Made by a program: the position numbers and the translations under genes. Below the pieces are notes generated by a model. That model worked only from the letters and a program-made list of their open reading frames with translations, ran no database searches and was not told where the DNA came from. This document shows positions 29,575 to 34,887 of a DNA stretch of 64,000 nucleotides, piece by piece; position 1 is the first letter of the stretch, and each line of letters opens with the position of its first letter. Source of the stretch: Paludibaculum fermentans. Lineage in GTDB: Bacteria; Acidobacteriota; Terriglobia; Bryobacterales; Bryobacteraceae. The stretch spans positions 2,852,001 to 2,916,000 of the forward strand of contig NZ_CP063849.1 in NCBI RefSeq assembly GCF_015277775.1. The letters are read 5' to 3'.

Positions 29575-30846
29575 TCAACCAACCGGCGGCACGGGCTCCT
29601 CAGCCGTCAGCAGCGGTCCCGGCAGTCTCGTCTCCGGCTGCTTCGCCCGGCTCTCCGGCAGTGCCGGCAAGAAGAGCATCAGCGCCGCCGCTCCCACGGT
29701 GAGTACCGCCAGCTTCACAATCATCCCGCCGTAGGATGAGGACGAATCGAACGCGCGGCCCATCAGGATCGGTCCAATCGCGCCCGCGATTGCATACGAG
29801 GTCCACGTCAGCCCGTACAGCGTCGAAAACGACCGCAGTCCGAAATACCGCGACAGCAGGAACGGAGTGACGTCCGCCTCTCCGCCCATCCCGAACCCAA
29901 TCAGGACCGCGGCCACGATCCCGGTCTCCAGCGTCCGTGCGCTCGCCATCACAAACACGCCGCCCGCTGCCAGGGCCAGCAGGACAAACCCCACGCGCGG
30001 CGCGGGAAAGCGGTCCAGCAGCCATCCTGTAATCATGCGGCCCAGGAAGGCAGCCACGCCCATCGCGGACACCGCCAGCGCGGCCCGGCTCGAATCCACG
30101 CCCCGGTCCGTCAACAGCGCGGGCAGATGCGTAATCGTCCCGTTCTGGCTGATCGACGCCAGGAACAACACCACCGCCAGGATCCAGAACGCCCTCGACT
30201 TCAAGCCCTCGGCCCACTCGACGCCGGTCTGGGCGTCTCCACTTGGCTTGCGCGAAGCCGGATTCTCGCGCACCATGGTCGCCACCGTCGGCAGCCCCAC
30301 CAGCAGCACCAGGCCCCCCAGCACCGCAAACGCCCACCGCCAGCCGAAGTGCAGGATCAACGCCTGGGCCGCCGGAGGCCACGCCACGGCGCCCACCGTT
30401 CCGCCCGTCAGCATCAACGCCAGCGCGAGGCCGCGCCGCTGGTCGAACCAGCTGCTGATCGCTCGAGCGTACGAAAGCATGGCCGTGCCGTTGCCCACGG
30501 CGCCAATCAACACAAACATCGCGTAGAGGTGCCACAGGTGCGAGCTCAGCAGGGACAACGCGCCGAAGGCCAGCGCGAACACGGTCACGCAGGGCACAAT
30601 CACACGCCGCGGCCCATACCGGTCCAACAGCCGACCCAGCACCGGCGAGCAGACTGCCACCGTCAGCGCCGCAAAGCCGAACGCCATCGACACCGCCTCC
30701 CTGGACCAGCCAAACTCCGCGCTCAACGGCTTCAGGAAGATCCCGAACGTATACACCAGCAGCGACGCGAAACCCGTCAGCACCCCGACGGATGACGCAA
30801 ACACCACCCGCCAGCCAGGATAGCCGGCCGAGCCTTCGCCGCTCAT
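29575..30846 (-). CDS. MFS transporter (oxalate/formate antiporter-like)
   Basis: About 423 residues from the ATG at 30846, which follows the upstream stop by one base; the ATG at 30861 overlaps that gene and is equally possible. Twelve hydrophobic helices are visible. The loop between helices 2 and 3 has the MFS signature (LGRLLDRYGPRRVIV), repeated in the second half as LGRMITGWLLDRFPAPR. The closest familiar subfamily is the monocarboxylate/OFA group. The substrate cannot be told. Overlap with the Sec-containing gene indicates co-transcription and coupled translation. Confidence 0.88.
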   Translation of the reverse strand: MSGEGSAGYPGWRVVFASSVGVLTGFASLLVYTFGIFLKPLSAEFGWSREAVSMAFGFAALTVAVCSPVLGRLLDRYGPRRVIVPCVTVFALAFGALSLLSSHLWHLYAMFVLIGAVGNGTAMLSYARAISSWFDQRRGLALALMLTGGTVGAVAWPPAAQALILHFGWRWAFAVLGGLVLLVGLPTVATMVRENPASRKPSGDAQTGVEWAEGLKSRAFWILAVVLFLASISQNGTITHLPALLTDRGVDSSRAALAVSAMGVAAFLGRMITGWLLDRFPAPRVGFVLLALAAGGVFVMASARTLETGIVAAVLIGFGMGGEADVTPFLLSRYFGLRSFSTLYGLTWTSYAIAGAIGPILMGRAFDSSSSYGGMIVKLAVLTVGAAALMLFLPALPESRAKQPETRLPGPLLTAEEPVPPVG

Positions 30847-30847
30847 T

Positions 30848-31495
30848 CTACTTTCTGACATAGCCCATTCCAGCCGACCTCTTTCCGCCCATGCGGTGCG
30901 CTTCGTCCGACAACGCGTGCACCCCGCTGGCATCGATCCAGCGGTTATAGAAGTTGAACAGCGCGCATACCGTGATGGCGTAGTAGATCGCTTCGTCGTC
31001 GTAGCCCACCGCGTGCAGCGGCGCCATATCCGCCGCCGTGATGTGCGGCGATTGATGGTTCACCTTGTCGACGAAACGGAACAACTCCTTCTCCCTGGCA
31101 TCCAGCTGCGACGTCTCGAGGTCACGAATCAGACTCTCGACGAACGCCTCGCCCTGCAGCCCCGGGCGTTCCTGCTCCAGCAAAACCGCCGCGACCGCGG
31201 CGTGCGACTTCAGTCAAAACGGGCAGTGATTGCGCGCCGACGTATAGGCCGCAATCAGCTCGCGCACGCCCGGGCTCAGCGGGCCCGGCTCGCGCAGCAT
31301 CTCCTGCGTGAAGCGCGCCAGGTGCGTCGTTGCCTCCGCCCTGAACGCGAACATGTGCCAGATCTGCGGATACTCCGCGCCCGACGCCTGCATCATGCGG
31401 ATGCTGTCCAGGTAGGCGCTCGGCTGGGGGTTGTTCTCCACCCCAGGCAGGAACATCGGCTCCATTGGAGACTTCGGCTTCTCGGAATCGCTCAT
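30848..31495 (-). CDS. AhpD/carboxymuconolactone-decarboxylase-like protein, probable selenoprotein (Sec94)
   Basis: Two open frames (31495-31214 and 31213-30848) are one gene in a single frame interrupted by TGA at 31216-31214. Read through, it gives 215 residues of the peroxidase-related CMD/AhpD family. The TGA falls at the second cysteine of the redox motif: NHCPF-U-LKSH, so Cys91-x-x-Sec94 with His98, and Glu79 is 12 residues before Cys91. This is the spacing of Mycobacterium AhpD Glu118/Cys130/Cys133/His137. The sequence after TGA (SHAAVAAVLLEQERPG) continues the family without a break. A SECIS-like hairpin follows. It is 15 bases after the TonB receptor and overlaps the MFS start. A point-mutation pseudogene is the alternative. 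Confidence 0.82.
31187..31202 (-). promoter_or_regulatory. Candidate bacterial SECIS hairpin
   Basis: On the transcribed (minus) strand, 11 bases after the TGA, CGCCGC pairs with GCGGCG around the loop GGUC. The loop begins at the 18th base after UGA. The E. coli fdhF SECIS has a GGUCU apical loop at nearly the same distance, and bacterial SECIS elements need a G-containing apical loop on a short stem about 16-37 bases downstream. Because the arms also encode the Ala-rich SHAAVAAV stretch, the stem could partly reflect codon choice. Confidence 0.6.
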
Positions 31496-31510
31496 CGCTC
31501 GCCCCTCACT

Positions 31511-34500
31511 CTAGAAGTTCAGCTTCAGCGCAAACTGCATCAGCCTCGGCGGAGCCGCGCTGAAGATGCGCCCGAAATTCGTCGAATTCAGATCCGATAC
31601 CGGCAGGCCGAAGTTGGCATGATTCGCCACGTTGAACGACTCCGCACGGAACTGCAGCCGCATCGCCTCAGTCAGCCGGAAATTGCGCACCAGCGATACG
31701 TCGAAGTTCGTCACCGCCGGGCCCCGGCCCGTATTGCGGCCCGCATTCCCAAACTGGCCTGCCTGCGTCACCGGGTTCAGCCGCGCAAACGCCGACCGGC
31801 TCATCCACTCATCCACCGTGTGCGGACCCGCATTCGGATCGCTCACCGCGTCCGGACGGCTCGCCGCGAACCCGGAGATCGGCGGGCTGTTCGCCTGCAG
31901 CGACACGTTGGTCGAGTCGGAAATGGTGAACGGCGTCGCCGTATTGTGAATCGCGATCAGGTTCAACTGCCAGCCGTTCACGGCATGCCGCATGGCGGCC
32001 GGAGCGCTCTTGCGGACCTTCGGCTCCCAGCTTCCGCTGGCGACGAACCGCTGCCGGGCATCGAACAGCGACGGCCCGTGCTCCGCCGCCAGGTTGAACG
32101 GATTCTGCGCCAGGTCGTTCTCGCCCGAAAGCGGCTTGGCCGCGGCACCCGACAGATTCATCGCCGACAGGTAATCCAGCGACTTCGAATACCAGTAGGA
32201 GACGTTGAACCCGAAGCCGCCGTTGTAGCGCCGCGAGAGGCTCGCCTGCGCCGCATGATAGGTCGAATTCGTGATGTTGGAAAGCATCGCGATGGTCGAG
32301 AAGTCGCACGAACCGCCATCGGCCGGGCAGTTCGCATATACCCGCCGTCGGTCGGCATTCTGGGCCGTAGCCCCGGGTCCATACACCGCCGGGTTCGCTT
32401 CGATGTTGCGCGGCAGCCGGGTGCCCTTCGAACCCACATACCGCACCTCCACCAGGTACTGCGACCACAGCGACCTCTGCACGCTCAGGTTCCAGTTCTG
32501 CGCATAAGGCGGACGCGCCGTCGGGTCAATCGCAAACACGGTGGACGGCCGGACAAACGTGTCAGCCGGAGGGTAAACCCGCCCGGCATACGGATCCGCG
32601 AAGTTCAGGCCGGTTCCGCTGTATTGATTGAACTGCGCCCACGGCAGCGAACTCACCGGCCCCTGCGAGGCCGTGCCCGAGCCGTTCTGGAACTGGTCAT
32701 AGAACAACCCGTAACTGGAACGCACCGACCACACGCCCTGCCCCGTCGGATCCCAGGCAAAACCCACTCGCGGCATCCAGCCGTTGTAGCTCTGCGCAAT
32801 CCCTTCCGCAATGCCGCGATCGCCCGGGAACAGCAGCCCCTTCGGAGCGTCCGGCCGTACCGTCGACTGCACGCCCGGCACAAACGCGTTCACCCGCTGC
32901 CGCAATTCCCTGATCGGGTTCAGCCGCTCGTAGCGCACGCCGTAGTTCAACGTGAAGTGCCGCGAGAGCCGCCACTCGTCCTGCGCGTAGAGGTTCGTGC
33001 CCCACATGCGCAGCCCGCGATGGAAGTCGCCCAGGCCCTGGTAGAACGTCACAGGCCCGCCCAGCAGCAGGTTCGCGATGGCATTGTTCGTCGGGAAGGT
33101 CGAGGCAAAGACGTAAAACGCGTTCGGAGCAATAGCCTGGAACATGTTCAATTGGGTCCGGACAAACCCGCCGCCGAACTTCAGCGAGTGGGCGCCGCGG
33201 AACCAGGACAGCCCCTCCTGCACCTCATAGCTGTTCTGCACGGAATCGCGCGGCCCCGTGATGGCGCCGCCGATGGGCGAGTAGCCGCTGATGTTGAAGA
33301 ACGGCGGCCCCTGCCCCAGGTCGGAAGCCGAGTTGTATTTGAACCCCAAAGCGCTGGGTGGCGTCCGGTTCAGGCGCGTATCGAAATCGAAGCTGTAGCG
33401 GAAGAAGGTCAGGCGCAGGGAGTTGCTCAGCGCCGGCGTGAACACGTGCGTGCTGGCCAGTGCCGCCGAGTGCGTGGTGATGTCATTGCGCGTCGGGAAG
33501 CCCGGCACCTCTGACCCGCGCACCGAGATCGGATTGATGTCGTAGCCGCCCGAGAAAGAATACCGGACCGAAAGCTGGTCCTTCGCCGTGGCCACCAGGT
33601 CCACGCGCCCACCCGCCTGGTCGAAGAAGTTCGTAGCCACCACCGTCGCCCGGTAGATCGACGGCGAGATGTTCCCAATGGGATAGAGATTGACCACATT
33701 CAGGGCCACCGGATTCAGGGCCTGCACCGGAATCTTGTTGCCCGGAATGGGCACGCCGCCCGCCGCGAAATTGATCAGTTGCACGCCCAGGTCGGAGAAG
33801 TCGCCGTTGTGCTGCTGCGCCGTCGGTACCGTGGCCGAGTTCGTAAAGCCCTGCTTGTTCCGGAACCCTTCGTAGTAGCCGAAGAAGAACAGCTTGTCCT
33901 TCTTCAAAGGACCACCCACCGTCCCGCCGAACTGGTTCTGCTTCAGCGGCTCCACGTCCTGGGAGAAGAAGTTGCGGGCGTCCAGCCTGTCGTTGCGCAG
34001 GAACTCATACACGCCACCATGAAACTGATTCCCGCCGGACCGAGTTACGACACTTGTGGTCGCTCCGCTCGTGCCGCCGTACTCCGGCGGAGCGCTTTGC
34101 GTCAGGATCCGGAACTCCGCAATCGCGTCCACTGGGATCTTCAGCGCATACCCGCCGTCCATGCGGTTGATGTTCTGTGCCCCATCCAGCAGGTAGAGAT
34201 TCGACTCCGGACGCATGCCGTTCACGGCGTAGGCCTGCCCCTGCCGCAGCGAGCCGCCCGCGGTCGCCACACCGGCGGTTAGCGGAGCCACGCCGGTCTG
34301 CAGCAGTCCCAACTGCGTGAAGTTGCGGCCGTTCAAAGGCAGGTCCAGCACTTCCCGTCCGCTCACCACCTTGCCCAGTGTGTTGGTGGTGGTGTCTACC
34401 ACCTGCGCATCGCCGGTCACCGTCACCGTTTCGTGTACGCTGGCCAGATCCAGCTCGATGTCCACGCGCAGCGTGCTGCTAACGTTTACCTGGACCGGCG

Positions 34501-34774
34501 TCTGTGTATACTTCGAGAACTGTGGAGCCTCGGCCGTCAGCGTGTAAGTCCCCACCGGCAGCGGCGGAAACCGGAACAGCCCGCCTTGCGACGAGATCGT
34601 CTCCTGGACGAGGCCCGTCGTCAGGTTCCTCACGGCAACGTGCGCGTTGCCCAGCATACTCCCGGACCGGTCCATGACGCGGCCCTCCACCACTCCGGTA
34701 GGGTCTTGCCCCCACGCGGCAGTGAACAGGGAGAGACAAATGAAATAAGCAGACCTGGACCAGAAGGATGTCAT
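31511..34774 (-). CDS. Oar-like TonB-dependent receptor with carboxypeptidase-regulatory domain
   Basis: Start taken at the second methionine (34774, 1087 residues), which opens MTSFWSRSAYFICLSLF, a signal peptide ending near AWG. Residues ~25-110 are a carboxypeptidase-regulatory-like beta sandwich (GVVEGRVMDRSGSMLGNAHV). Residues ~115-230 form the plug, with VLDLPLNGRNFTQLGLLQTG, the hallmark of this acidobacterial family. The rest is a large beta-barrel (YGVRYERLNPIREL, YAQNWNLSVQRSL) closing in LMQFALKLNF with a terminal Phe for outer-membrane insertion. It probably imports an oligosaccharide or other large ligand. It heads an apparent operon with the Sec-containing AhpD-like gene and the MFS transporter. 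Confidence 0.9.
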   Translation of the reverse strand: MTSFWSRSAYFICLSLFTAAWGQDPTGVVEGRVMDRSGSMLGNAHVAVRNLTTGLVQETISSQGGLFRFPPLPVGTYTLTAEAPQFSKYTQTPVQVNVSSTLRVDIELDLASVHETVTVTGDAQVVDTTTNTLGKVVSGREVLDLPLNGRNFTQLGLLQTGVAPLTAGVATAGGSLRQGQAYAVNGMRPESNLYLLDGAQNINRMDGGYALKIPVDAIAEFRILTQSAPPEYGGTSGATTSVVTRSGGNQFHGGVYEFLRNDRLDARNFFSQDVEPLKQNQFGGTVGGPLKKDKLFFFGYYEGFRNKQGFTNSATVPTAQQHNGDFSDLGVQLINFAAGGVPIPGNKIPVQALNPVALNVVNLYPIGNISPSIYRATVVATNFFDQAGGRVDLVATAKDQLSVRYSFSGGYDINPISVRGSEVPGFPTRNDITTHSAALASTHVFTPALSNSLRLTFFRYSFDFDTRLNRTPPSALGFKYNSASDLGQGPPFFNISGYSPIGGAITGPRDSVQNSYEVQEGLSWFRGAHSLKFGGGFVRTQLNMFQAIAPNAFYVFASTFPTNNAIANLLLGGPVTFYQGLGDFHRGLRMWGTNLYAQDEWRLSRHFTLNYGVRYERLNPIRELRQRVNAFVPGVQSTVRPDAPKGLLFPGDRGIAEGIAQSYNGWMPRVGFAWDPTGQGVWSVRSSYGLFYDQFQNGSGTASQGPVSSLPWAQFNQYSGTGLNFADPYAGRVYPPADTFVRPSTVFAIDPTARPPYAQNWNLSVQRSLWSQYLVEVRYVGSKGTRLPRNIEANPAVYGPGATAQNADRRRVYANCPADGGSCDFSTIAMLSNITNSTYHAAQASLSRRYNGGFGFNVSYWYSKSLDYLSAMNLSGAAAKPLSGENDLAQNPFNLAAEHGPSLFDARQRFVASGSWEPKVRKSAPAAMRHAVNGWQLNLIAIHNTATPFTISDSTNVSLQANSPPISGFAASRPDAVSDPNAGPHTVDEWMSRSAFARLNPVTQAGQFGNAGRNTGRGPAVTNFDVSLVRNFRLTEAMRLQFRAESFNVANHANFGLPVSDLNSTNFGRIFSAAPPRLMQFALKLNF

Positions 34775-34887
34775 TGATGGAACCCAGCGAAGCAATGGGT
34801 CTGATACTACACGGGATGGATCAGAATCAGCAATATGCGGTTTCTACTAGTGTGTAGTGGGGATGGCGGGCGACAGGACCCAAAAGA

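Follow-up and report, generated by a model that had tools for sequence, protein, structure and literature searches.

The question raised by this locus is whether an AhpD-like gene that is interrupted by an in-frame TGA codon is a broken gene or is read through the TGA as a selenoprotein. The locus lies in a window of 64,000 nucleotides and its features are collected in Table 1. Standard translation yields two open reading frames, 31214..31495 with 93 amino acids and 30848..31183 with 111 amino acids starting from a TTG, which are the two truncated genes that the first-pass annotation expected to be listed there. When the single in-frame TGA is taken as a residue, the two frames fuse through it, as was proposed, into one frame of 215 amino acids. 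The extent given at that time was correct, and the strand, which was left unstated, is minus. The active site features an E79-x11-C91-P-F-U94-x3-H98 motif, and the proposed identity of its spacing (+12, +3, +4) with that of AhpD was confirmed; the catalytic residues of AhpD are Glu118, Cys130, Cys133, and His137 in the numbering quoted in PMC3141380. Sequence comparison indicates that the gene is almost certainly intact and encodes a selenoprotein with an active-site selenocysteine. The two pieces given by standard translation would belong to a single selenoprotein, with Sec in its active site, that is conserved across many genomes of Acidobacteriota.

Table 1. Features of the AhpD-like selenoprotein locus, with positions numbered in the window.
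Feature	Position	Strand	Remarks
Predicted AhpD-like (TIGR01926) selenoprotein gene	30848..31495	-	215 codons and TAG, one TGA read through
In-frame TGA, predicted selenocysteine U94 (codon 94), within C91-P-F-U94	31214..31216	-	From the reading frame and relatives
SECIS-like hairpin CGCCGC-GGTC-GCGGCG	31187..31202	-	11 nt between the TGA and the first hairpin base
Upstream outer-membrane receptor (CarboxypepD_reg and OMP_b-brl_4)	31511..34795	-	Stop 15 nt from the selenoprotein start
Downstream MFS transporter	29575..30846	-	From an ATG 1 nt past the selenoprotein stop; longer ORF from 30933 possible

Relatives of the gene were collected by scanning named genome contigs with two search patterns that do not span the TGA codon, and the best 80 of 280 relatives were kept. 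TGA is found at the codon-94 position in 79 of these 80, the remaining one (L129) having TGC; in the tabulated subset the counts are 77 TGA and 1 TGC out of 78, and the other two TGA rows are L111 and L113. The best 80 of 280 are the nearest relatives of the query and the rows are related, including near-copies (L100 shares 97% identity with the window gene, and the protein rows L171 and L153 equal L018 and L155, respectively). Their titles are mostly Bryobacterales or Acidobacteria, and five carry other labels: L143, L164, and L179 are assigned to Gemmatimonadetes or genera thereof, L156 to Chthoniobacterales, and L102 to Proteobacteria. Based on the same codon being TGA in 79 of the 80 fetched relatives, the common TGA is judged to be far above chance. 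Across the phylum, a homologue with E ≤ 1e-10 was detected in 68 of 396 genomes. The 14 best phylum-scan matches (at least 44% identity, own gene included) feature 10 TGA and 4 TGC codons (L021-L024), and E79, C91, column 94, and H98 are invariant in 14 of 14 when Sec is written as C in the alignment. Among 36 more distant TGA-bearing homologues that were fetched with G082 omitted, the TGA forms a CxxU motif in 33 places by pattern and in the remaining 3 by reading. The in-frame UGA is located in a column that is Cys among non-Sec homologues. The comparison of homologues also revealed that neither half is decayed. The differences per codon position over 76 relatives are 0.24/0.17/0.46 before the TGA and 0.22/0.19/0.48 after it, which points to similar coding constraint on both sides. 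The first-pass annotation had noted family similarity on both sides as well. The Cys versions (L021-L024 and L129) sit among Sec versions, with two changes on the best tree, which suggests Sec-to-Cys switches. A TAG inside the G139 homologue was considered and set aside, as it lies ahead of the conserved part and is most likely upstream of the start of that gene. The genome that carries the window gene also contains two adjacent stop-free AhpD-like paralogues (G000:C1:3119789-3120927) with 32-33% identity.

All four components of the selenocysteine machinery, selA, selB, selC, and selD, were sought in the same genome and found above their family cut-offs. The tRNA-Sec with anticodon TCA scores 68.8 bits (cut-off 47), SelB 358 bits (cut-off 242), SelA 490 bits (cut-off 268), and SelD 353 bits (cut-off 125). 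A second match to the tRNA-Sec model, barely above the cut-off at 47.4 bits, is a tRNA-Ser by ARAGORN. The selD gene of this genome (L049:1501-2406; G000:C1:9301580-9302485) carries a single in-frame TGA close to the start codon end of its frame and is therefore likely a selenoprotein gene itself. Within the 68 genomes with a homologue, SelB is present in 43 of 46 that carry a TGA-bearing homologue vs 3 of 22 that do not (Fisher p 6e-11; the TGA and SelB labels were read by eye, and the genomes are related, so that the p value overstates independence). The background of SelB across the phylum scan is 255 of 396 genomes. The three genomes that have a TGA homologue and no SelB match, G080, G242, and G266, are assemblies of 450-950 contigs that are 72-90% complete, and the three that have SelB and no TGA-bearing homologue are G275, G334, and G394.

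The GGUC-loop hairpin that was described as starting 11 bases past the UGA was located exactly there, with a 6-bp stem and a 4-base loop, and comparison with relatives showed that it is conserved with covariation. The SECIS criteria printed in PMC13188914 include a loop of 3-9 nt with a G within its first two positions, a stem of 4-16 bp, a loop located 16-37 nt from the UGA, and an energy of at most -7.5 kcal/mol; the values found here are a GGTC loop, 6 bp, 17 nt from the UGA, and -12.4 kcal/mol (nt 9-31 after the UGA). All six pairs are kept in 71 of the 77 tabulated TGA genes and five pairs in the other 6, whereas the five Cys relatives examined keep three or four pairs and the full stem is absent. 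The stem is weak in two TGA genes, L151 (-5.2 kcal/mol) and L176 (-4.2 kcal/mol). Gene by gene the stem is weak evidence because the encoded peptide, HAAVAA, itself favours a hairpin at its codons; in comparison with synonymous shuffles, the energy values of the 10 Sec genes, taken singly, range only from 0.04 to 0.31. The hairpin argument therefore rests on synonymous covariation together with the common TGA. In the stem alignment 98.2% of 497 pair cells are paired, and the covariation score over 71 distinct rows is 0.236 vs 0.121 when shuffled; the corresponding values for the ten phylum Sec genes are 0.384 and 0.105. The loop-closing codons are GCG-GTC in 45 of 77 genes, GCA-GTT in 27, and mixed in none, so the first and last loop bases covary while the amino acids are unchanged. 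A Gly codon replaces Val in the other five, and in one of these, L163, the closing bases are unpaired. On a quick tree the loop-closing pair changes 12 times (best tree), with at least 6 of the changes on well-supported branches, and for six independent pairs both sides change jointly in almost every one of 200 pairings, with no change in opposite directions (sign test at the loop-closing bases, p 0.03). The SECIS model of the 2026 review (PMC13188914) contains such a closing pair, so the pattern fits the known SECIS structure. These joint synonymous changes would document cleanly, in natural sequences, that a bacterial SECIS element has been under selection. In one relative (L029:1804-1836) the loop after the TGA is CACG, without the usual G-U, and the closing bases still pair. 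An Rfam scan of 30700-31600 returned only three matches, each below its family cut-off.

The read-through protein matches NCBIfam TIGR01926 with 86.0 bits (cut-off 81.8) and Pfam CMD with 36.1 bits (cut-off 23). An AlphaFold2 model, computed with Cys in place of Sec, has a mean pLDDT of 93.5 that is high on either side of residue 94. The best PDB matches of the model, 6k40, 2prr, 3c1l, 2oyo, and 2pfx, belong to the AhpD/peroxidase-related group and resemble it over the whole length (TM by query 0.66-0.73); however, in each of the five a CxxC motif occupies the site where Sec is predicted here, and the identity is 20-26%. AhpD from M. tuberculosis (structures 1gu9, 1knc, 1lw1, and 1me5) shares the Glu-x11-Cys-x2-Cys-x3-His spacing and the all-helical build, but it has Cys133 at the position of the Sec, and its whole chain matches poorly (Foldseek TM by query 0.37-0.42, rmsd 10-12, 16-19% identity). 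The debrominase Bmp8 is one of the weaker fold and sequence matches.

There is a discrepancy regarding the role of the residue encoded by the TGA. The first-pass annotation placed it at the resolving-cysteine position, which is doubtful since the residue of M. tuberculosis AhpD that aligns with U94 is Cys133, described in PMC6626918 as the exposed cysteine that bonds AhpC via a disulfide, with Cys130 partly buried. By analogy with Cys133, U94 is probably the reacting residue and C91 its partner. According to the same paper, in B. thailandensis AhpD the other (first) cysteine of the pair has the larger role. An AhpC domain was not found in the six neighbouring window proteins that were scanned. 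Taken together, we hold with very high confidence that the locus encodes one 215-aa AhpD-like protein, in which tRNA-Sec(UCA) and SelB would insert selenocysteine at UGA codon 94, directed by the hairpin immediately 3' of the UGA. The product would adopt an all-helical fold of the AhpD type, with Glu79, His98, and a C-x-x-U motif in its active site, and its most likely role would be reducing a hydroperoxide or, alternatively, a disulfide partner, for example a peroxiredoxin. U94, as the selenolate, would react with the substrate, a Se-S bond would then form between U94 and C91, and a cellular thiol system would regenerate the enzyme. Comparison supports the recoding, the conservation, the RNA element, the family, and the predicted fold, whereas we infer that the protein contains selenium, which substrate and reductant it uses, how U94 and C91 divide the reaction, and whether it is linked to the transport genes next to it.

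The two truncated frames of standard translation are what a pseudogene, an AhpD-like gene split by a nonsense mutation, would also produce. This origin is extremely improbable, as the same TGA is present in 79 of the best 80 of 280 relatives, both halves are similarly constrained with a downstream frame that is intact in many species, the catalytic His98 past the TGA is conserved, and the genome encodes the Sec machinery. The first-pass annotation named two observations that would refute its reading, a lack of selB and selC, and close relatives with clear Cys codons together with decay of the downstream half, the latter as the mark of a nonsense mutation; both genes are present and the downstream half is undecayed. 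The 111-aa frame from the TTG at 31183 could instead mark a second protein, restarted behind a short N-terminal one. There is next to no chance of such an arrangement, given that the stretch from the TGA to the TTG is well conserved and contains His98, that the Cys relatives are one continuous protein, and that the model of the read-through protein stays confident through residue 94. The TGA could also be read through in another way, as Trp, as Cys, or by near-cognate suppression, and Cys insertion would work too, since Cys occupies the column among non-Sec relatives. However, TGA serves as the stop codon of the MFS and amidohydrolase genes, 2 of 9 neighbours checked, the TGA homologues track SelB, and a full stem accompanies the TGA and is absent from the 5 Cys relatives examined, which leaves this kind of decoding barely conceivable. 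The three readings were rejected.

The selenoprotein gene is located between a receptor gene and an MFS transporter gene, and the conservation of this arrangement was determined in 78 tabulated loci, 76 of which have a flank long enough to judge the neighbours. An MFS relative is the adjacent downstream gene, in the same orientation, in 28 of 78 loci and a receptor relative (at least 45% identity) is directly upstream in 16; with the thresholds used, both are adjacent in 12, either in 32, and neither in 46. The cluster is rarer in 13 phylum-scan neighbourhoods (9 Sec and 4 Cys), where the MFS is found in L051 (Sec) and L060 (Cys) and a receptor of at least 45% identity only in L060. In this last locus, from genome G359, a Cys orthologue that is 55-57% identical is flanked by counterparts of both neighbours, with identities of 60% and 48%, and G359 gave no SelB match. 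Sec and Cys orthologues in the same gene cluster allow a comparison of what selenium adds. From these counts over the 78 loci and the 13 neighbourhoods, the receptor/selenoprotein/MFS cluster is recurrent in the near clade and not universal. The MFS protein is nearest to L-lactate and oxalate/formate carrier models, yet it is below their cut-offs. A histidine kinase gene adjoins the selenoprotein gene of L155 (L155:6356-7945), and its relatives are found in 14 loci, among which the distance and the strand differ.

The cluster tentatively suggests an uptake system, although an improbable one, in which the receptor would import a compound, the MFS protein would complete its entry into the cell, and the selenoenzyme, whose gene sits between theirs, would reduce it; candidate substrates are a lipid or organic hydroperoxide and a halogenated aromatic. 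Selenium use in Acidobacteriota would then be tied to a particular nutrient. The product may also be a selenoprotein other than a peroxidase, namely a reductase or a reductive dehalogenase acting on a compound that the transporters next to it bring in. The 16 upstream receptor relatives and 28 downstream MFS relatives in 78 loci, as well as the presence of Bmp8 among the weaker matches, are in line with such an enzyme; however, the closest relatives of known structure carry the names AhpD or peroxidase-related and 46 of the 78 loci have neither neighbour adjacent with the thresholds used, and we consider this role unlikely. The selenoprotein with a peroxide- or disulfide-reducing role is the preferred reading.

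AhpD-like selenoproteins had been described before, as the first-pass annotation stated. They have been known with a CxxU motif since the Sargasso Sea survey (PMC1088965), are placed under TIGR01926 in the 2026 review (PMC13188914), and are tabulated as TIGR01926 / COG2128 with CxxU in PMC1088965, PMC2398784, PMC13188914, and PMC9312934. For Acidobacteria, an early survey (PMC1794560) counts 4 selenoproteins from 3 families, and an acidobacterial AhpD-like member may already be among the 4. No paper on the acidobacterial clade or its gene cluster was found in the open-licence literature searched. The related NCBIfam families NF041238, NF041047, and NF053654 are annotated as (seleno)proteins, and the window protein scores far below their cut-offs (36.9/175, 17.4/110, and 12.9/310 bits, respectively). 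The window gene is a well-supported new member that adds to the already described AhpD-like selenoprotein family. When compared by description, the acidobacterial clade and the receptor/MFS context are unmentioned in the tabulated entries of these sources, and what this analysis adds is the spread in Acidobacteriota, the partly conserved receptor/MFS cluster, and the corrected equivalence of U94 with Cys133. The known AhpD-like selenoproteins share with the window gene the TIGR01926 match, the Sec at the second position of the CxxU pair, and the SECIS-like hairpin right past the UGA.
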